Origin: Synechococcus sp. M44_DOE_062
GTDB taxonomy: Bacteria; Cyanobacteriota; Cyanobacteriia; Thermostichales; Thermostichaceae
Direction: 5' to 3'
Length of the DNA: 64,000 nt
NCBI GenBank assembly: GCA_015295985.1
Contig: DVDX01000073.1
Coordinates: forward strand, 1 to 64,000
In this document: positions 12,321 through 64,000 of the stretch, piece after piece
Numbering within the stretch: the stretch's first letter is position 1
Layout of the letters: every line of letters begins with the position of its first letter
The notes under the pieces: model-generated
What the model was told of the DNA's origin: nothing
Database searches by the model: none
What the model saw: the letters and a program-made list of their open reading frames with translations, nothing else
Program-made: the position numbers and the translations under genes

Positions 12321-14051
12321 ATGTTGCGCCTGCTGCGGATCGAGAACTTTGCCCTGATCGAGCAATTGGAGATCCCCTTTCGAGCAGGGCTGAACGTGCT
12401 CACCGGAGAAACCGGGGCCGGCAAATCCATCATCCTCGATGCGCTGGATGCAGCTCTGGGAGGTACAGCAAGGACTCCGTCCCGCGGGCGCGACCGGGCT
12501 CTGCGAACTGGCAGCGAACGAGGTCTGGTGGAAGCAATCTTTAGTCCCAATCCTGAGCTGCAAGCCTGGCTAGAACAAGAGCACATCGACCCCCTGGAGG
12601 AGGGCCTGGTTTGTAGTCGCGAGCTGGTGTTGCGCAACGGCAAGCTCACCAGTCGCCTGCGGGTAAATGGGGTGCTGGTAAACAAAGCCCAAATGCTCAG
12701 CCTGCGGGCCAAATTGGTGGAGATCACCGCCCAGGGGCAAACCGTTCAAATCCAATCTCCGCAAACCCAGCGCCATTGGCTGGACGATTTTGGCGGCGAA
12801 GAGCTGTTGCGAACACGGGCAGAAGTGGCTGCCCTTTACCAAACCTGGAACCATCTGAAAACAGAGGTGGAATCCCGCCGGCAAAACCAACAACTGCGCC
12901 TGCAACGGCTAGACCTGCTGGAGTTTCAAGCGCAAGAGCTGGCCGCCCTGCGCCTGGAGGATCCCGACGAAATGGCCAAGCTGGAGCGGGAACGGGAGCG
13001 CCTGGCCCACCGCGTGGAACTGCAACAGCAAAGCTACGAAGCCCACCAATTGCTCTATCAAAACGACAGCGGCTCACCGGCCATCGCCGATCTGTTGGGC
13101 CAGGTAGAACGGTTGCTCCAGGCCATGACCCAGCGGGATCCCGGCCTCGCCCCTCTGGCGGAAATGGTCAGCAGCGCCCTGATTCAGGTGGAAGAGGTGG
13201 GGCGAGAGCTAATTCGCTACGGCGAGACCCTGGAGGCGGATCCCGGTCGGTTGAACAAAATTGAACGGCGCTTGGCGCAACTCAGGCAAGCCTGCCGCAA
13301 ATACGGCCCGACCCTAGCCGAGGTGATGGCCCATGCGGAGCGGGTGCAGACGGAGTTGGCCCAACTGCGAGGAGACAACACCGACCTAGAGGAATTGCAG
13401 GCGCGGCTGGACAAAGCTGCCCAAGACCTGGAGCGCCATTGCCAGGTGCTCTCTCAACTGCGGCAACAAGCGGCCTGTCAACTGGAAAAGGCCCTCATAG
13501 AAGAGCTCAGGCCACTGGGGATGAGCGCAGTGCAATTCCGGGTGCAGATCCAACCCGGCCCCCCGACAGCAGAGGGGGTGGATCAGGTGAGTTTTTGGAT
13601 TAGCCCCAACCCGGGTGAGCCTCTTCAACCTTTGGCCAGCATCGCCTCCGGCGGCGAGATGAGCCGTTTTCTACTGGCCTTGAAAGCCGTATTCAGCCGC
13701 ATCGATCCGGTGGCCACCATGGTTTTCGACGAGATCGATGCCGGCGTGTCGGGCAAAGTGGCGCAAGCCATCGCCACCAAGCTGCACAGCATTGCCCGAG
13801 ATCACCAGATCCTCTGCGTCACCCACCAGCCCCTGATTGCCGCTCTAGCGGATCACCACCTGCGGGTTCACAAGGTGGTGCACCCAAAACGAACTTCCGT
13901 GCGGGTGGAGCTTTTGGGAGAACGAGAACGCCGCGAAGAACTGGCCCAACTCACTGCCGGCCACTCTGCTCAAGAAGCGATGACGTTTGTGGAGGCTCTT
14001 CTCAACCAAGCAGCTCAACTGCGCAAGCAGCAAATGGCCAGTCCCGCTTGA
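12321..14051 (+). CDS. recN: DNA repair ATPase RecN
   Basis: SMC-like ATPase acting in recombinational repair of double-strand breaks. The 576-residue protein has the N-terminal Walker A GETGAGKS (residues ~30-37), long coiled-coil arms (about 165-400) and the C-terminal ABC signature ASGGEMSRFLLALK with Walker B VFDEIDAGVSG and an ITHQP-like CVTHQPLIAALAD. Shortly after Walker A, between ALGG and RTGSERGLVEA, it has roughly six more residues than I expect (TARTPSRGRDRAL). This coincides with a copy of the dispersed GGACTCCGTCCC element at 12472-12497. The frame is preserved and the rest looks intact. Confidence 0.95.
   Translation: MLRLLRIENFALIEQLEIPFRAGLNVLTGETGAGKSIILDALDAALGGTARTPSRGRDRALRTGSERGLVEAIFSPNPELQAWLEQEHIDPLEEGLVCSRELVLRNGKLTSRLRVNGVLVNKAQMLSLRAKLVEITAQGQTVQIQSPQTQRHWLDDFGGEELLRTRAEVAALYQTWNHLKTEVESRRQNQQLRLQRLDLLEFQAQELAALRLEDPDEMAKLERERERLAHRVELQQQSYEAHQLLYQNDSGSPAIADLLGQVERLLQAMTQRDPGLAPLAEMVSSALIQVEEVGRELIRYGETLEADPGRLNKIERRLAQLRQACRKYGPTLAEVMAHAERVQTELAQLRGDNTDLEELQARLDKAAQDLERHCQVLSQLRQQAACQLEKALIEELRPLGMSAVQFRVQIQPGPPTAEGVDQVSFWISPNPGEPLQPLASIASGGEMSRFLLALKAVFSRIDPVATMVFDEIDAGVSGKVAQAIATKLHSIARDHQILCVTHQPLIAALADHHLRVHKVVHPKRTSVRVELLGERERREELAQLTAGHSAQEAMTFVEALLNQAAQLRKQQMASPA
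12472..12497 (+). repeat. GGACTCCGTCCC element inside recN (diverged, in frame)
   Basis: The copy reads GGACTCCGTCCCGCGGGCGC and then CGACCGG. It encodes RTPSRGRD in RecN just downstream of Walker A, where family members are shorter. The open frame is preserved. Confidence 0.7.
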
Positions 14052-52791: not shown

Positions 52792-53871
52792 CTACAACTG
52801 GGCTTGGATGCGGTCAAACAAGGCCCCAAAGGACTCCGTCCCGCTGACGCGATCGGCAAAAAAGCGGTTTTGGACAACCTCCCAGCCTCCCAGGTCAGCA
52901 ACGGTAACCAGCTTCTCAACAGGAGGGTACCGCCAGGCAAACTCTTGGGCCACCGTCGGCTCCACCGGGCGAAAGCCCACCTCGGCAAAGGCCCGCTGCG
53001 CTTCTGGGGTGAACAGGTAGTCCACAAAGGCTTCGGCCACGGCACGGGTACCTTTGCGATCCACATTGGCATCCACCACGGCTACGGGGTTGTCAATGGA
53101 AATGTTGGGGCTGGGCACCACATAGGACAGGGATTGGCCGCGCAAGCCCGCCAGGATGACCTCATGTTCGTAGGTGATCAGGGCATCTCCTTGCCCTTTC
53201 TGGAAAAAAACATCGGTGGCCTCTCGCGAGTCCCGCGGCAAAATGCGGACATTTTTGTAGACCTGGGTGGTGAAGGCCAGAGCCTGGGGTTCAGGGACAG
53301 CGCTCCAGAGGGCTAAAAAGTTCCAGCGGGCGCCCCCTGAGGTTTTGGGGTTGGCGGTAACCACCTGCAAGCCGGGCCGAGCCAGATCCGACCAAGAGCG
53401 GATCCCCTGGGGGTTGCCCTCCCGCGTTACGATCACCGCCACCGAACGGGTGACGATCCCTTGGTTGGGGGTGCGGACTTCCCACCCCGGCTGAATAAGG
53501 CCAGCAGCCACGATGCGCTCCACATCCAGGGCCAGAGCCAAGGCCACCACATCGGCATCCAGCCCGTCAATAACTGCCCGCGATTGCGTCGCCGAGCCGC
53601 CATAGCTGCTTTCCACCCGCACCCGTTGCCCCGTTTTCGCCAGCCAATCGGCCTCAAAAGCAGGGATGATCTGCCGGTAAGCATCCCGAGTCACCGCAAA
53701 GGAGGCGAGGAGAATGGCCACTTCCCCTTTGGATCCCCCTGAGCCCATGTCGCCGGCACAGCCACCAAGGCCAAGAAGAAGGCCAAAAATTAGGGATCCC
53801 ATCCCCAGCCACCGTCCCCCGCTCGCCAGCAGCCTCTGGATCCCGGCCATGAGCCGAGACGACAGGATCAT
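52792..53871 (-). CDS. sbpA: Sulfate-binding lipoprotein SbpA
   Basis: Periplasmic sulfate-binding protein, 359 residues from ATG 53871, with a lipobox LLLGLGGC. Family features are ILLASFAVTRDAYRQIIPAF, VESSYGGSATQSRAVIDGL, ADVVALALALDVERI, and NPKTSGGARWNFLALW. The C-terminus reads FFADRVSGTESFGALFDRI; family members normally run FADGGxFDxI without the RVSGTESF segment. It coincides exactly with an in-frame 27-bp dispersed element at 52831-52857. Longer starts (53925 or 54006) are possible; the latter includes a C-rich repeat and is rejected. Confidence 0.92.
   Translation of the reverse strand: MILSSRLMAGIQRLLASGGRWLGMGSLIFGLLLGLGGCAGDMGSGGSKGEVAILLASFAVTRDAYRQIIPAFEADWLAKTGQRVRVESSYGGSATQSRAVIDGLDADVVALALALDVERIVAAGLIQPGWEVRTPNQGIVTRSVAVIVTREGNPQGIRSWSDLARPGLQVVTANPKTSGGARWNFLALWSAVPEPQALAFTTQVYKNVRILPRDSREATDVFFQKGQGDALITYEHEVILAGLRGQSLSYVVPSPNISIDNPVAVVDANVDRKGTRAVAEAFVDYLFTPEAQRAFAEVGFRPVEPTVAQEFAWRYPPVEKLVTVADLGGWEVVQNRFFADRVSGTESFGALFDRIQAQL
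52831..52857 (+). repeat. 27-bp GGACTCCGTCCC element inserted in sbpA
   Basis: A full-length copy with core GGACTCCGTCCCGCTGACGC followed by GATCGGC. On the sbpA strand it encodes DRVSGTES, nine codons in frame, within the last 25 residues of SbpA. Confidence 0.88.
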
Positions 53872-54083: not shown

Positions 54084-54110
54084 GGACTCCGTCCCGCTGA
54101 CGCGAACGGC
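54084..54110 (+). repeat. 27-bp GGACTCCGTCCC element (intergenic)
   Basis: Full-length copy with exact core GGACTCCGTCCCGCTGACGC followed by GAACGGC. It lies just downstream of the acetyl-CoA synthetase stop codon and does not interrupt a gene. Confidence 0.88.
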
Positions 54111-54119
54111 AGGGGATCC

Positions 54120-56942
54120 CTAGGGGGAGCAGGCGGCGAGAATTGCCGGATCAGGGGTTAAAACCAGATCAGCCTTGAGGATCCCGGGATCCTCTGGAGA
54201 GGGGCGCAGCTGGAACCCCAGGCGCTGACACAGGCGGCGCATCGCCTCGTTTTCGCCGAGAACCTCGCCGGTGAGGCGCTGGATCCCTTCGCAGCGGGCC
54301 ACCTGGATGAGGCGGGTCAACAGCTCCGTGCCGATCCCTTGCCGTTGATAGGGATCCGCCACCAGCATGGCAAACTCCGCTTCTTCGGGAAGGCCGTGTT
54401 TCCTGGAGAGGCGGCTGATGCCGAGAATTGAGGACTCCGTCCCGCTGACGCAATTGGCTTCTGGCCCCTGTTTTTCGGCCACCAGGGCAATCTCGCGGTC
54501 GTAGTCGTTAAAGCAAATGCGGGTGAGGCGCTCATGGGCGATACGGGCGCTGTATTTGATCGGGTGGAAGTAGCGCAGGTAGACGCTGTAATCGGAGACG
54601 TGGCGGTGAAAATCGATCACCAGAGGCTCATCTTCGGGGCGGATGGGGCGAATGGTGATGCCGTCCCGGAAGCTCCAGATGTACTGGGTGGGGTAGGGGC
54701 GAATGGCCAAGGGCACCTGGGGATCCTGCTCCGTTCGCAAAATGATGCGGGCATCGAGGGCCACCAACCCCTTGGCAGAAGCCAGTAGCGGGTTGATGTC
54801 AATTTCCCGGATGTCTGGTTGTTCGGCCACCAGTTGGCTAAAACGCACCAAGAGCTGTTCCAAAGCCTCCAGATCGACGGCTGGGCGTCCCCGTACCCCC
54901 TTGAGGGCTTTGTAGATGAGAGTGTTTTCCATCAAGCGCCGCGCCAAGGTGGTGTTGAGGGGGGGAAGGCCGATGGAGTGATCTTGAAACACCTCCACCA
55001 GTTGTCCGCCGCTGCCAAACAGCAACACCGGCCCAAACTGGGGATCCTGACTGCTGCCCAAGATCAGCTCGTAGCCATCCGTGCCCACCAAAGGACTTTG
55101 CCCCGCTGCCACAAAGGGCTGCACCGTGACCCCCTGGAAGTGCTCAGGCCCCGCTTTTTCGGTAACGTTGCGGTAAATTTGCCCAAAAGCCCGCCGCACG
55201 GCTTCTGCATCGGGCAGGTTGAGCTGCACGCCGCCCACCTCGGTCTTGTGGGTAAGGGTGTGGGAGTAGAGCTTCACCACCACGGGGTAGCCGATGGCCT
55301 TGGCCGCCTCCACCGCCGCCTCGGGACTCTCTGCCACCCGCGTTGGCACCACCGGGATCCCGTAGGCGGCCAGGATCTCCTTGGACTCTGCCTCGGTTAG
55401 AAGCGTTTGGCCTTCCCGCCGGGCTTGGCTATTCGCGATAGCGGGACGGAGTCCTTGGGTTTGCTGCACCCTGTCGCGCTCTACTGCTGGTGAAGGGGGC
55501 AGGGTGGGGGTTTCGTAGAGGGCCTTGAGGTTGTAGCTAAATCGCCACAAATAGCTAAATACCCGCGCTGCTTGGTCTGGGTAGCGGTAGGTAGGGATCC
55601 CGGCCTGGTTGAGGATCTGCTCGCCGGCATCCACGCCAGCTCCCCCCATCCAACTGGCCAGAATGGGCTGCCGGGATCCGCTGCGCCGCCAGGTTTCCAC
55701 CACTTTCTCAGCCGTGCGGGTGGGATCCGTCATGGCTTGGGGGGTGAGGATGACCAGACAGCCCTGGCTGCCGGGATCTTGCAACACCACTTCCAAAACT
55801 TGGGCAAAGCGCTCCGGATCGGCATCCCCCAAAATATCAATGGGATTGCCGTGGCTCCAGTGGGGGGGCAAGATCCGGTCGAGCTGCTCCAGGGTTTGGG
55901 GGGAGAGCTCGGCCAGGGATCCCCCGGCGCGAATGAGGGCATCGGTGGCCAGCACCCCTGGCCCGCCAGCATTGGTGAGGATGGTGAGGTGGGGCCCCTG
56001 GGGGCGGGGCTGCTTGGCCAGTACCTCCGCCATGTCGAACAGATCTTCGATGTGGTCTACCCGCAGCACACCGCAACGGCGAAAGGCCGCGTCCAAAACG
56101 GCATCGCTGCCGGTAAGGGATCCCGTGTGGGAAGCCGCTGCTTGGGCCGCCGCTTGGGTGCGTCCAGCCTTGATGGCAATAATGGGCTTGCTCAAGGCCA
56201 CCTCGCGGGCCGCCGACAAAAAAGAGCGGGCATCCCCGATGGATTCCATGTACAGGACGATGCTGTGGGTGTGGGGATCCTGGCCCAAGTAGTCAATCAG
56301 ATCTCCCCAGCCCACATCCAGCATGGATCCCAGAGAGATAAAGGCACTGAAGCCCACATTTTCCTGCAGGCTCCAGTCCAAAATCGAGGTGCATAGGGCT
56401 CCACTCTGGCTGATGAAGCCCACATTGCCGGCGCGGGCCATTTGGCTGGCAAAGGTGGCATTTAAGCCGGTATGGGGGTTTTGGATCCCTAGGCAGTTGG
56501 GGCCAATCAAGCGCAGCTTCCCAGGGACTCCGTCCCGCTGACGCGACCGGATAGTCTGTTGAATTTGCTTCTCCAGCTCCCAGCCAGCAGGGCCCGTTTC
56601 CTTGAAACCCGCTGAAAGAACAATTGCGCCCTTGACCCCCACTTCCACACACTCTTGCACCACCTCGGGCACCCCCGCTGCCGGAATGGCAATAATAGCC
56701 AGATCCACTGCTTCCGGCAAAGCGGAAAGCCGCTCATAGGCCCGGATCCCCAACACCTGCTGCCGCTTGGGATTGACGGGGTAGACCGTGCCGCCAAAGG
56801 GGTAGCTGATGAGGTTCCACAACACCGTCCGCCCCACACTGCCCTCTCGCTCCGTGGCCCCCACCACCGCCACCGAACGGGGCAGAAAAATGGGATCCAA
56901 TGGGATCCAAAGGATGAGATCGAGCCTTCCAGATATCCACAC
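54120..56942 (-). CDS. ADP-forming acetyl-CoA synthetase (alpha-beta fusion) with C-terminal GNAT domain; 5' end frame-disrupted
   Basis: About 940 residues: CoA-binding Rossmann domain ([17 protein letters not shown]), succinyl-CoA-ligase-like domain with [10 protein letters not shown] and [12 protein letters not shown], the phospho-His candidate in [10 protein letters not shown], an ATP-grasp domain ([20 protein letters not shown]) and a GNAT domain ([17 protein letters not shown]). It would make acetate plus ATP from acetyl-CoA; Pat-type lysine acetylation is the alternative. The start is unclear: AGGAGGAGG plus ATG at 56964 lie in another frame, separated by a 10-bp duplication at 56891-56910. 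Removing one copy would join MWQWPDPS... to the conserved DPIFLPRS. Without that, GTG at 56942 or TTG at 56900 must be used. Three dispersed elements lie inside the gene. Confidence 0.85.
54432..54458 (+). repeat. 27-bp GGACTCCGTCCC element inside the GNAT domain of the acetyl-CoA synthetase gene
   Basis: Core GGACTCCGTCCCGCTGACGC followed by AATTGGC. On the gene strand it encodes ANCVSGTES in the segment between LVAEKQG and ILGISRLSR, where homologues are shorter. The frame is preserved. Confidence 0.86.
55432..55454 (-). repeat. GGACTCCGTCCC element in opposite orientation inside the acetyl-CoA synthetase gene
   Basis: Reverse-oriented copy (plus strand TTCGCGATAGCGGGACGGAG, then TCC). Because its orientation relative to the gene is opposite to the other copies it encodes GLRPAIAN, in the linker before the ATP-grasp domain. 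The frame stays open. Confidence 0.8.
56525..56550 (+). repeat. GGACTCCGTCCC element inside the CoA-binding domain, alternative frame
   Basis: Core GGACTCCGTCCCGCTGACGC followed by GACCGG. Here the same orientation is read in a different frame, giving [10 protein letters not shown] between the helix LEKQIQQTI and [11 protein letters not shown]. The frame remains open. Confidence 0.86.
56891..56910 (+). repeat. Exact 10-bp tandem duplication TGGGATCCAA at the 5' end of the acetyl-CoA synthetase gene
   Basis: Two adjacent copies of TGGGATCCAA. The unit is centred on GGATCC. Because ten is not a multiple of three, loss of one copy would bring the ATG at 56964 (with AGGAGGAGG upstream) into frame with the long coding region. 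Confidence 0.95.
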
Positions 56943-56980
56943 TGGGGTCTGGCCACTGCCACATACCCTCCTCCTTGCGC

Positions 56981-59625
56981 TCAGGTCAACGCTGGATCTG
57001 GCTGGTGGTAGAGAGCAGAATCCACCCGGCAGCCCTGATAGGCGAGGACATACAGCTCCTTCATATCCTGAATGAGGGGATAGCGGGGGTTGGCGCCGGT
57101 GCACTGGTCGTCGAAGGCTTGCTCCGCCATAGTCTCCAGACGGTCGTAGAACTCCCGCTCCTTCTCGCCCAGGGCCTCGCGAATGGTGGCCGGGATCTCC
57201 AGTTTCCGCTTGAGCTCTTCAATGGCCTCAATCAGGCGCATGACCTTTTCCTCGTCAGAGGACTCCGTCCCGCTAACGCGAACGGCCCCACCCAACTGCA
57301 GGTAATCGGCAATTTCCGCGTAGCGGTGTTTGGCGTTGGGATAGCGGTATTGGGGAAAGATGGCCTGCTTAAAGGGGGCGTCGGTGGCATTGTAGCGGAT
57401 AACGTGGGAAATCATCAGGGCATTGGCCAGGCCATGGGGCAGATGGAAGGTGGATCCCAGCTTGTGGGCCAGGGAGTGGCAAACCCCCAAAAAGGCATTG
57501 GCAAAGGCCATGCCGGCAATGGTGGCGGCGTAGTGAACTTTTTCTCGGGCCTCTGGATCTGCGGCGCCCTTTTCGTAGGCCCGCGGCAGGTAAGTCATCA
57601 ATAGCTTGATGGCCTGCAGGGCCAGCCCATCGGTAAAGTCGCTGGCCATTACCGACACATAGGCTTCCAGAGCGTGGGTGAGGGCATCGATACCCCCGTA
57701 AGCCGTTAGCTTCTTGGGCATCTTAAGGGTGAGATCCGGATCCACGATGGCCATGGTGGGGGTGAGGGCGTAGTCCGCCAGGGGGTACTTGATCCCCACC
57801 CGGTCATCGGTCACCACGGCAAAAGGCGTCACCTCGGATCCCGTGCCGGAAGTGGTGGGGATGCAGATGAGCTGAGCTTTTTGTCCCAGTGGGGGCAGCT
57901 CGTAAACTCGCTTGCGGATGTCCATAAAGCGCATCGCCAAGCCATCAAACTCCACCTGGGGCTGCTCGTACATCAGCCACATCACCTTGGCCGCATCCAT
58001 TGGGGATCCCCCGCCGACTGCAAGGATCACATCCGGTTGAAACTGGCGCAACTGCTCCAGACCGCGATTGACGTTGCTGAGGGTGGGATCCGGCTCTACA
58101 TCGTGGTACACATCCCAGCTCACGCGAATCTCATCCAAAACCTGGGTGATGGGATGCAACATGCCCAGCTCAAAGAGCGGCTTATCGGTCACCAAAAAGG
58201 CACGTTTTTTGCCAGCCAATTCCCGCAGGGCAACGGGTAGACATCCGGGCTTGAAGTAAATCTTGGGCGGGATCCGAAACCAGAGCATGTTTTCCCGACG
58301 TTGGGTCACGGTTTTGAGGTTGAGCAGGTGATGCGGCCCCACATTGTCAGAGACAGAGTTGCCCCCCCAAGTGCCACAGCCCAAGGTCAGAGAGGGATCC
58401 AGCTTGAAGTTGTAGAGATCCCCGATTGCCCCCTGGGAAGAGGGAGTATTGATCAACACTCGCGCCGTTTGTAGGGCATTCTCAAAGTAGGCAATACCAT
58501 CCCGATTGGCGGGATCTGTGTACAAAACAGAGGTGTGCCCCCTGCCCCCGAAATTGACCAGTTGAACGGCCACTTCCACAGCAGCGTGAAAATCCTTGGC
58601 TCGGTAGAGGGCTAAAATAGGGGCTAATTTTTCGTAGGAGAAGGGCTCCTCAGGCCCCACCTTCTCCACTTCCCCGATCAACAGCTTGGCGCCTTCGGGA
58701 ACCTGGATCCCAGCCAGGGCAGCGATGGTTTGCACCGATTGGCCCACAATGGCCGGATTTAGGCGACCGTCTTTGAGAAGGATGCGGCGCACTGCTTCGG
58801 TTTGTTCCAGATCCAAAAGGTAGGCCCCCCGATGGCGAAACTCGGCCTTGACCTGCTCGTAGATGGCATCCACCACCACCACTGCCTGTTCTGAGGCACA
58901 GATCATGCCGTTGTCAAAGGTCTTGCTCAAGAGAATCGAGCTGACGGCTGTGGGGATGTCGGCGCTGCTATCGATCACTGCCGGGGTGTTGCCCGCTCCC
59001 ACCCCCAAAGACGGGTGGCCCGAAGAGTAGGCTGCTTTGACCATGCCAGGCCCGCCGGTAGCCAAGATCAGCTTCACCTCAGGATGCTGCATCAAAGCCT
59101 GAGAAAGCTCGATGGTGGGTTCATCGATCCAGCCGATCAACCCCACGGGAGCGCCCGCTGCCTCGGCAGCTTCTCTAACCACTTTGGCTGCGGCAATGGT
59201 GCATTGTTTGACCCGCGGGTGGGGAGAAAAGATAATGCCGTTGCGGGTTTTTAGGGTGATCAGAGCCTTAAAAATGGTCGTTGACGTGGGGTTGGTCACC
59301 GGCACAATACCTGCCAAGAGCCCCACCGGCTCAGCAATTCTCTCGTAGCCAAAACTCTCATCCCGCTCGATGACCCCGCAGGTCTTCTCGTGTTTGTAAT
59401 GTATTCTGAGGCAAAGTGATTTTTGATCACCTTGTCTTCCACAATGCTCATGCCGGTTTCCTGTACAGCCAGCTTGGCCAACGGGATCCGTTCACTATTG
59501 GCAGCCAAAGCGGCCTTGTGAAAAATCCGGTCTACCTGTTCTTGGGTGAAAGTTGCATATTCAGCTTGGGCAGCCTTCACCTGTTGGATCAAGGTTTCCA
59601 GCTCGGCTAGATTGGTCACTGGCAT
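56981..59625 (-). pseudogene. adhE: Bifunctional aldehyde-alcohol dehydrogenase AdhE with a one-base frameshift
   Basis: AdhE reduces acetyl-CoA to acetaldehyde and then ethanol. From ATG 59625 (GGAGG upstream) the first ~76 residues read normally to NHFASEYI, then the frame breaks near 59398. Adding one A on the plus strand would restore ATT-TAC, YKHEKTCG and the rest, giving about 881 residues. Without it the first frame stops at 59296 and the second (to 59326) carries the remainder. Domains: CoA-dependent aldehyde dehydrogenase (GMICASEQAVVV with Cys) and C-terminal iron alcohol dehydrogenase (GGGSPMDAAK, HSLAHKLGSTFHLPHG). A dispersed element at 57260-57286 encodes RVSGTESS. Whether the shift is real, programmed or a sequence error is unresolved. 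Confidence 0.9.
57260..57286 (+). repeat. 27-bp GGACTCCGTCCC element inside adhE
   Basis: Copy with one change in the core (GGACTCCGTCCCGCTAACGC) followed by GAACGGC. On the adhE strand it encodes AVRVSGTES between LQLGG and [17 protein letters not shown], where relatives usually have only two or three residues. Confidence 0.88.
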
Positions 59626-59714
59626 CGGTGGATCCCTCCAAAACCTCAGCAAGACTTAGACAATGGGAATAATTGACAATCAGATATTTGGCTGAAATCG
59701 CTGCATAACCCGAT

Positions 59715-59745: not shown

Positions 59746-60156
59746 CTAGATGCCAACAGGAGCAGGAACTTGGATTTCAGTGGTCAGGGTGGGGGGATGG
59801 GTGAGCGTATTGTGAATGATGCAGGCATCAACTGTTTTTTCCAGACCCTTTTGATGCCTTTCGTCCAGCGGGATCCCAGTTTTCACTTGAATGCGAATGT
59901 TGTCTAGGCGAGCCGGATGCTCAACTTTCTCCGCCTTGACCACCACAGCCAACCCCCTCGGATCCAATTGCCGTGCTTCCAGATATTTGACGGCATAAAA
60001 ACCAACACAGGCGCCCAGAGAAGCCAAAAACCATTCTGGTGGTGTCATTCCCTGATCTCGACCGTGGTTGTCCAAAGGCTGATCGCTGAGAATGCGGTGC
60101 CCTTGGCTTTCCGCTTGGAACTGAACACCATCGCGATAGGTGACGCAAACTTCCAT
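59746..60156 (-). CDS. OsmC/Ohr-family peroxiredoxin-like protein
   Basis: 136-residue OsmC-fold protein. The two redox cysteines expected for the family are visible: LGACVGFYAVKYLEA (first) and VDACIIHNTL (second). PPEWFLASLGACVG matches the OsmC subfamily more than Ohr. Such proteins reduce organic hydroperoxides. It lies between pflA and adhE on the same strand. It may protect oxygen-sensitive fermentation enzymes, but that is only inferred from position. Confidence 0.84.
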   Translation of the reverse strand: MEVCVTYRDGVQFQAESQGHRILSDQPLDNHGRDQGMTPPEWFLASLGACVGFYAVKYLEARQLDPRGLAVVVKAEKVEHPARLDNIRIQVKTGIPLDERHQKGLEKTVDACIIHNTLTHPPTLTTEIQVPAPVGI

Positions 60157-60346: not shown

Positions 60347-61096
60347 TCAGACAGCTACCAGCCCTTGATCCCGAAACATCTGCAAGGCGTGATTCACCTG
60401 CTCGGGTGTGGGTGGATCGACATCGGCAAGAGTGTAAGGCAATCCCAATTGCTGCCATTTGTATTCCCCCATCTTGTGAAAGGGCAAAACTTCTACCCGC
60501 TCAACGTTAGAAAGCGTCGCTACAAACTGAGCCAAGCCCTTGATGTTTTCTTCGGGATCCGTCAGTCCCGGAACGAGTACAAAACGAATCCAGGTGGGCT
60601 TGTGGATCTGGTCTAAATAGCGGGCCAGATTAAGAGTGGGTTCTAGCGAAACACCGGTGATCTTTCGATACAGCTCCGGCAGATAAGACTTAATATCGAG
60701 CAACACCAAATCTGTGTGCTCCAGCACAGGCTTTGCCGCTTCCAGTTGCACATAGCCAGAAGTATCCAAAGCCGTGTGCAAGCCCAACTCATGACAGCGA
60801 CGGAAGATCTCGGCCACAAAGTCGGGTTGCAGCAAAGGCTCTCCCCCGGTAACCGTAACTCCCCCCGCTCGCAAGTAATTCCAGTAGCGTTGGATCTCGG
60901 CAATCAAAGATTCAACCGTAACAAGTTGTCCCGCCTCCGGATCCCGACAGTCGGGGTTGTGGCAATACAGACAGCGAAGTGGACAACCCTGCGTGAAAAT
61001 CACAAAGCGGATCCCTGGGCCATCGACAGTGCCGCAGGTTTCCACCGAGTGAATGCGCCCGGCAATTGGCGTCGGGGTGCTCATAACAGTATTCAT
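60347..61096 (-). CDS. pflA: Pyruvate formate-lyase activating enzyme (radical SAM)
   Basis: Uses a [4Fe-4S] cluster and SAM to form the glycyl radical on PFL. The 249 residues have the CxxxCxxC cluster motif in GCPLRCLYCHNPDCRD near residue 40, GGVTVTGGEPLLQ, ALDTSGYV, LLDIKSYLPE and VLVPGLTD. It lies downstream of pflB with a pentapeptide-repeat gene between them, all on the minus strand. An alternative ATG lies four codons downstream. Confidence 0.94.
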   Translation of the reverse strand: MNTVMSTPTPIAGRIHSVETCGTVDGPGIRFVIFTQGCPLRCLYCHNPDCRDPEAGQLVTVESLIAEIQRYWNYLRAGGVTVTGGEPLLQPDFVAEIFRRCHELGLHTALDTSGYVQLEAAKPVLEHTDLVLLDIKSYLPELYRKITGVSLEPTLNLARYLDQIHKPTWIRFVLVPGLTDPEENIKGLAQFVATLSNVERVEVLPFHKMGEYKWQQLGLPYTLADVDPPTPEQVNHALQMFRDQGLVAV

Positions 61097-61727: not shown

Positions 61728-64000
61728 TTAGCAGTGTTGATGGAACGTGCGGTTAATGACATCCAGTTGCTGCTCGCGGGTGAGCTTGATGAAGTTCACC
61801 GCATAGCCGAAAACCCGGATGGTGAGCTGGGGATAGAGCTCGGGATGCTCCATGGCATCCAGCAGTGTTTCGCGGTTAAAGACATTCACATTTAAGTGAA
61901 AGCCCCCATCCCGCACGTAGCCATCCAGCAGCCCCACCAAGTTGCTGATCCGCTCCTCTTGGGTGCGGCCTAGAGCAGTGGGCACAATAGAGAAGGTATT
62001 GGAGATCCCATCCAGAGCGTCGGCATAGGGCAGCTTGGCCACCGAGGCCAACGACGCCAAGGCCCCTTTGCTATCCCGGCCATGCATGGGGTTGGCCCCT
62101 GGGGCAAAGGGTTCGCCTGCTCGCCGCCCATCGGGGGTATTGCCGGTTTTCTTGCCGTAGACCACGTTGGAAGTGATGGTGAGGATGGACTGGGTGGGCA
62201 CCGCATTGCGATAGGTTTTGTGCTTGCGCAGCTCCGCCATGAAGGTCTGCACCAGTTGCACGGCAATGGAGTCAACCCGGTCGTCGTTGTTGCCGTATTT
62301 GGGGAAGTCCCCATCCACCACGTAGTCCACGGCCAAGCCCCGTTCATCCCGGATAACCCGCACCCGCGCGTATTTGATGGCAGACAGGGAGTCGGCGGTT
62401 ACCGACAGGCCGGCCAGCCCAAAGGCCATCGTGCGCAGAATGTCCCGGTCGTGCAGGGCCATCTCCAGGCGCTCGTAGCAGTACTTGTCGTGCATGTAGT
62501 GGATGATGTTCATGGTGTTGACGTAGGTCTTGGCTAGCCAGGCCATCATCTGCACCAGGCGCGGCCACACCTCGTCGTACTCCAGCACGTCAGCGGTGAT
62601 GGGGGCAAAGGCAGGAGCTACTTGCTCGCCGGAGATCTCGTCCCGACCGCCGTTGATGGCATAGAGCAGGCACTTGGCCAAGTTTACCCGCGCCCCAAAG
62701 AACTGCATTTGCTTGCCGATGCGCATGGCCGACACGCAACAGGCAATGCCGTAGTCATCTCCCCAGTAGGGGCGCATCAGGTCGTCGTTTTCGTACTGGA
62801 TGGAGCTGGTTTGGATGGAGACCTTGGCGCAGTAGCGCTTGAAGGCTTCTGGCAGCCGCTCTGACCAAAGCACGGTCAAGTTGGGCTCCGGCGCCGGCCC
62901 CAGGTTGTAAAGGGTGTGCAACATGCGGAAGCTGGTTTTGGTGACCAAAGGCCGCCCATCTAGGCCCATGCCGCCGATGCACTCGGTAACCCAGGTGGGA
63001 TCCCCGCTAAACAGCTCGTTGTATTCAGGAGTGCGCAAAAACCGCACCATGCGCAGCTTCATGACGAAGTGGTCAATGAGCTCCTGCGCTTCTTCTTCAG
63101 TGAGGATCCCGGCTTGCAGATCTCGCTCGATGTAGATGTCCAAGAAGGTGGACACCCGCCCCAAGGACATGGCCGCCCCGTTTTGCTCCTTGACTGCTGC
63201 CAAGTAGGCCAGGTACAGCCATTGGATGGCTTCGCGGGCGTTGGCTGCCGGACGGCCCAGGTCAAACCCATAGCGGGATCCCATCTCTTTCAGCTCTTGC
63301 AGGGCTTTGATCTGCTCGGAGAGCTCCTCCCGCAGGCGGATGGTCTCTTCGTCCATCGTGTCCAGGTCTAGGCTGGCTTTTTGGGCCTGCTTGTCTTCGA
63401 TGAGCCGATCCACCCCGTAGAGGGCCACCCGTCGATAGTCCCCGATGATGCGACCCCGACCGTAGGCATCCGGCAGGCCGGTGATGATCCCGGAGCGGCG
63501 GCAGCGGCGCATCTCTTCGGTATAGGCATCGAAAACGCCGTCGTTGTGGGTTTTGCGGTACTGGGTGAAGATTTCCTTGGTGCGCGGATCCAGCTCGTAG
63601 CCATAGGCTTTGAGGGAAGACTCCACCACGCGGATGCCGCCAAAGGGCAGAATGGCCCGCTTCAGGGGTTTGTCCGTCTGCAGCCCCACAATCTGTTCCA
63701 ACTCTGGGTCGATGTAGCCGGGGGCGTGGCTGGTAATGGTAGAGGGAACGGCGGTATCGGCGTCCAGGATCCCTCGCTCTCGCTCCAGAGCCATCCAATC
63801 CTTGACCTTGGCCCACAGCCGCTGGGTGCGCTCGGTGGCTGCAGCTAAAAAGGTTTCATCGCCGGTGTAGGGGGTGTAATTCCGTTGAATAAAGTCTCTG
63901 ACATCGATGCAGCGCTGCCAGGATCCCGGCGCAAAATCGCTCAAAATTCTTTGACCGCCTGCGTTGGATCCCGTCCTTGGTTGCGCCTTCAATTCTGTAG
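61728..64000 (-). CDS. pflB: Formate C-acetyltransferase (pyruvate formate-lyase), 5' end near or beyond the window edge
   Basis: Glycyl-radical enzyme converting pyruvate and CoA to acetyl-CoA and formate. At least 754 residues are visible. The active-site Cys pair is in [10 protein letters not shown], and the radical Gly is in RVFGYAVNF near the C-terminus. Most homologues have Ser before that Gly (RVSGYAV); here it is Phe. The frame is open to the edge: TTG at 63992 is the first in-window start candidate, but the true start probably lies just outside. The N-terminal [23 protein letters not shown] pattern lies near the start, so little is missing. It is the first gene of the fermentation group. 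Confidence 0.94.

Follow-up and report, generated by a model that had tools for sequence, protein, structure and literature searches.

A probable recent pseudogene of adhE in the pyruvate formate-lyase cluster of a Thermostichus-type cyanobacterium

The window, i.e., the whole stretch of 64,000 nucleotides that was analysed, belongs to a Thermostichus-type (Synechococcus A/B clade) genome, here designated G000, and carries on its minus strand a cluster in which the intact genes for pyruvate formate-lyase (pflB) and its activating enzyme (pflA) are accompanied by adhE, representing the ethanol route of the cluster, and, directly downstream of the latter, by acs (Table 1). The position of this cluster in metabolism is of interest in that the Synechococcus of hot-spring mats are believed to draw on stored glycogen for fermentation during the night (PMC11788075). 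Reference is made throughout to the closest genome, the finished sister genome G004 (3,046,682 bp), and to G001 (2,932,766 bp).

Table 1. Coordinates, within the window, of the genes, lesions and repeats of the pfl-adhE-acs region
Feature	Coordinates	Strand	Remarks
acs, ADP-forming acetyl-CoA synthetase with GNAT domain	54120..56964	-	ATG 56964 with AAGGAGGAGGG upstream; Pfam; alignment with seven relatives
Perfect 10-bp tandem duplication in acs	56891..56910	-	TTGGATCCCA x2; shifts the acs frame
Rest of adhE, other frame	56981..59326	-	781 aa from GTG 59326; partial Aldedh and complete Fe-ADH
In-frame 24-bp insertion, ADH part of adhE	57260..57283	-	copy of a dispersed 24-bp repeat; site empty in sister G004
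N-terminal adhE fragment	59296..59637	-	ATG 59637, AdhE residues 1-76, ~37 out-of-frame residues, stop (113 aa); ORF list, two-frame translation
Deletion junction in adhE	59397..59399	-	relatives CATTTACAACAAATACAAAC, window CATTACAAAC; alignments with eight relatives and pairwise with G004
136-aa protein between adhE and pflA	59746..60156	-	intact; apparently an OsmC-like protein, with conservation in G004 and G001
pflA, pyruvate formate-lyase activating enzyme (radical SAM)	60347..61096	-	intact
pflB, pyruvate formate-lyase	61728..63998	-	intact; start beyond window end
Copies of the 24-bp element	57260-57283, 52831-52854, 54084-54107, 55431-55454, 56525-56548, 12472-12495		

The reading frame of adhE is broken in the assembly. 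Starting from ATG 59637, which is preceded by a Shine-Dalgarno-like GGAGGG, it stops at 59296-59298 to give 113 aa, and the remaining AdhE coding sequence lies in another frame, running to 56981. Since two stretches of the G004 protein, residues 1-81 and 80-875, are matched in two different frames with 93% and 95% identity, respectively (tblastn), the frame break is not a product of chance. DNA alignment with eight relatives (G001, G003, G004, G005, G006, G023, G036 and L022) reveals a net deletion of 10 bp on the minus strand, the window reading CATTACAAAC where the relatives read CATTTACAACAAATACAAAC; the deletion, which can be written as [TTACAACAAA] or in an equivalent placement one base along, corresponds to codons Y77-N78-K79 plus one base. 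The relatives, be they members of the genus, of the family or more distant cyanobacteria, possess an uninterrupted adhE with CAT(T/C)TACAACAA(A/G)TA(C/T)AA at the junction, specifying the peptide EYIYNKYKHEK, and the missing residues belong to a motif that is nearly identical in the E. coli enzyme (EYIYNAYK in the alignment to 6TQH). A single T of microhomology is present at the junction and an imperfect TACAA repeat is seen close by. An earlier note on this DNA had placed the break near codon 76, essentially where it is found (codon 77), and had rested it on a minus-strand string, GAATACATTACAAACACGAG, that occurs only once in the window (59387-59406). On the other hand, the single-base deletion repairable by an extra T that it proposed is ruled out by the DNA alignment, in which ten bases are missing, and the homologue sequence that it gave, EYI-YKHEK, is three residues shorter than that of the relatives.

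The consequences for the domain structure are asymmetric. No Pfam domain was matched in the 113-aa N-terminal product, whereas the 781-aa frame, 95% identical to G004 AdhE, matches PF00171 from profile position 127 to 426, PF00465 over its entire length (1-168/168) and PF25137 almost completely (1-192/194), and retains within its partial Aldedh domain the FDNGMICASEQ catalytic Cys motif. Thus, the single uninterrupted frame of ~870 aa required for a functional bifunctional AdhE is not found in G000, being broken at 59397-59399, and the N-terminal acetylating aldehyde dehydrogenase domain is not complete in any one frame, PF00171 being covered only from position 127; the C-terminal iron-dependent alcohol dehydrogenase domain (PF00465, PF25137) is instead complete in the downstream frame. 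Beyond the junction there is neither a further stop nor a further frame break, so that the earlier claim of intact downstream domains holds. As the 10-bp deletion takes out codons 77-79 and one base, translation from the normal start comes to an end at 113 aa, so that neither the catalytic cysteine nor any part of the alcohol-dehydrogenase half is reached, and acetyl-CoA produced by pyruvate formate-lyase would presumably no longer be reduced to ethanol via AdhE.

The lesion is confined to the G000 lineage, a full-length open AdhE frame being present in 5/5 other genomes of the genus that were examined, as well as in 2/2 genomes of the same family. A second or replacement adhE was sought in the G000 genome and none was found; the gene is single copy, and the other Fe-ADH of G000 is a separate protein of ~384 aa common to the whole genus. 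In the class as a whole, loss or absence of adhE is common, since an AdhE match was obtained for only 87 of the 194 genomes sampled; AdhE being absent from about half of the sampled cyanobacterial genomes, its loss is an ordinary event.

Both the residual constraint and the paucity of lesions bear on the age of the break. Compared pairwise with G004, adhE has a dN/dS of 0.083, within the range of the neighbouring genes, indicating that it has been under constraint for nearly all its history. Furthermore, the pairwise alignment with G004 contains, besides the 10-base deletion, a single other indel, i.e., an in-frame insertion of 24 bases, so that further decay is absent, as is the case for recent pseudogenes. 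The lack of other lesions combined with the strong residual constraint indicates that the break is recent; the same data rule out an old adhE pseudogene.

The persistence of constraint downstream of the break could also be taken to mean that the split gene retains a residual function, reinitiation after the 59296 stop yielding an ADH-only protein that would interconvert acetaldehyde and ethanol. Translational coupling is possible because four candidate starts (GTG 59326, TTG 59317, GTG 59305 and GTG 59299) are found no more than 30 nt ahead of the upstream stop, and the Fe-ADH domain is complete. However, no clear Shine-Dalgarno-like sequence precedes these starts at the usual distance, the aldehyde-dehydrogenase half is devoid of its first ~104 residues and would therefore not turn acetyl-CoA into acetaldehyde, and the recency of the lesion explains the persisting constraint equally well; overall, we regard this alternative as improbable. 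Still further down the scale, and close to negligible in our judgement, is a programmed ribosomal frameshift yielding full-length AdhE, frameshifting as such having been contemplated in the earlier note. Two overlapping open frames, and nothing more, speak for it; but reading of the overlap yielded no slippery heptamer or other evidence of programming, the gene is uninterrupted in the relatives and even after a one-base shift of the ribosome the protein would lack Y77-N78-K79.

The 24-bp insertion in the ADH part of adhE is a copy of a dispersed element (~NTCGCGYYAGCGGGACGGAGTCCT), for which a search with a 17-mer core allowing up to 1 mismatch gave 101 matches in G000, 131 in G004 and 10-35 in other members of the genus (reversed control, 0). 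At five sites this element is present in G000 but missing from G004, the difference being in each case a single clean 24-bp gap; two further sites differ between the two genomes by 24 bp in total. Some copies sit within reading frames, where they add 8 codons and keep the frame. In size, the element resembles the very small mobile repeats described elsewhere among cyanobacteria (Elhai 2008, as cited in PMC4390886).

A second lesion, new here and missed in the earlier note, affects the adjoining acs. Compared with seven relatives, this gene contains ten extra bases, constituting a perfect TTGGATCCCATTGGATCCCA duplication, independent of the adhE deletion, that shifts the frame ~20 codons past the conserved ATG. 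The duplicated unit contains GGATCCC; among the octamers of the sister genomes, the strongest over-representation is that of GGGATCCC (PMC4390886). Since the catalytic frame is open and alternative in-frame starts are available (GTG 56942 and TTG 56900) by which the lesion may be bypassed, the function of acs may be reduced but not abolished.

The main rival to a genuine lesion is an artefact of sequencing, assembly or polishing, whereby adhE would be intact in the organism and ten bases would have been lost in the draft contig. Indeed, G000 is a draft of 90 contigs and adhE is otherwise strongly constrained. Furthermore, when 196 coding-like genes (212 kb) were surveyed by comparing 410 kb of G000 with 2.07 Mb of G004 through a codon-position filter that requires 120 nt on both sides and is blind to near-start breaks such as that of acs, three mid-gene breaks (adhE, a cyanophycin synthetase gene and a helicase-like gene) were found in G000 and none in the reciprocal control with G004; their occurrence in the draft alone is the pattern that errors would give. 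Taken by itself, this asymmetry fits gene decay and imperfect assembly alike.

As to the other two genes, that for cyanophycin synthetase (cphA; G000 C12:129543-132240, loci L165 and L272) has a 1-bp insertion causing a frameshift near codon 197 and is intact in G002-G005, G001 being without a full-length match of the family. The large helicase-like gene (C12:51590-56823, locus L161) has several frame breaks and corresponds to one frame of 1734 aa in G004.

Sequencing errors do not typically take the form of a 10-bp indel outside a homopolymer. The adhE lesion is of this kind, being 10 bp in unique, non-homopolymer sequence, and neither are the remaining surveyed breaks homopolymer errors; a second, different 10-bp indel occurs in the adjoining gene of the same pathway, and the window contains no Ns and has no contig edge nearby, the contig ending at 73074. 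The earlier note had left the choice between recent loss and sequencing error, as opposed to old decay: the recency stands, but a base-call error becomes less likely given that the deletion is of 10 bases. We therefore consider an artefact unlikely, while granting it a larger chance than any other alternative to a genuine pseudogene.

Some indication that selection may have changed at this end of the cluster comes from branch-assigned changes, obtained by parsimony with G001 as the single outgroup. On the G000 branch the N/S ratio is 0.34 for adhE and 0.30 for acs, the corresponding values for the G004 branch being 0.12 and 0.15. When the two genes are pooled, a contrast chosen post hoc, the ratio is 51/160 (0.32) on the G000 branch versus 17/125 (0.14) on the G004 branch (p = 0.006; parsimony, one outgroup), and within the G000 branch 51/160 for adhE and acs versus 52/265 for the other genes (p = 0.03; likewise post hoc and by parsimony). 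The N/S ratio of the other genes does not differ between the two branches (p = 0.64), and the difference between adhE plus acs and pflA plus pflB alone is not significant (p = 0.18). The raised amino-acid change in adhE and acs on the G000 branch, a modest post hoc sign, suggests that, in the pfl-adhE-acs cluster, constraint at the ethanol/acetate end has been relaxed.

On balance, the single adhE of this genome is probably a recent pseudogene, ordinary gene loss being the likeliest origin. No description of the lesion was found in the literature that was searched. A bolder proposal is that neither outlet of the pfl cluster, be it ethanol through adhE or ATP-yielding acetate through acs, is left to the strain, each having been lost by a separate 10-bp indel, while pflB and pflA were kept; we advance this tentatively and hold it to be rather unlikely. 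Acetate kinase and a gene of the LDH/MDH family are present and open in 6/6 genomes of the genus, and the former could still allow acetate formation. If both outlets were lost, night-time fermentation would be shifted to other products or the strain would depend on partners or light, relaxed selection at the strain's temperature or in culture being a possible cause. A strain in which adhE and the adjoining acs both carry natural lesions would, if real, provide a ready-made comparison for the contribution of the ethanol route. It is this double lesion in one cluster that is worth following up, the kind of biology being ordinary.

G004 and G001 have the same pflB-pflA-adhE-acs cluster as G000, with AdhE proteins 92-95% identical, but differ in that adhE and acs are uninterrupted in both. 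With E. coli AdhE (PDB 6TQH, 6AHC), to the former of which the intact sister AdhE aligns end to end, the enzyme shares the domain order, the N-terminal EYIYN.YK.EKTCGV motif, the catalytic Cys motif and the Fe-ADH domain; unlike the E. coli gene, adhE of G000 is divided into two frames by the 10-bp deletion and has acquired an 8-residue ADH insertion from the dispersed repeat. Finally, with the recent bacterial pseudogenes that originate by small indels it has in common a single, lineage-specific frame-breaking indel in an otherwise intact and constrained gene; from these G000 does not differ in kind, but in having two neighbouring genes of one pathway affected.
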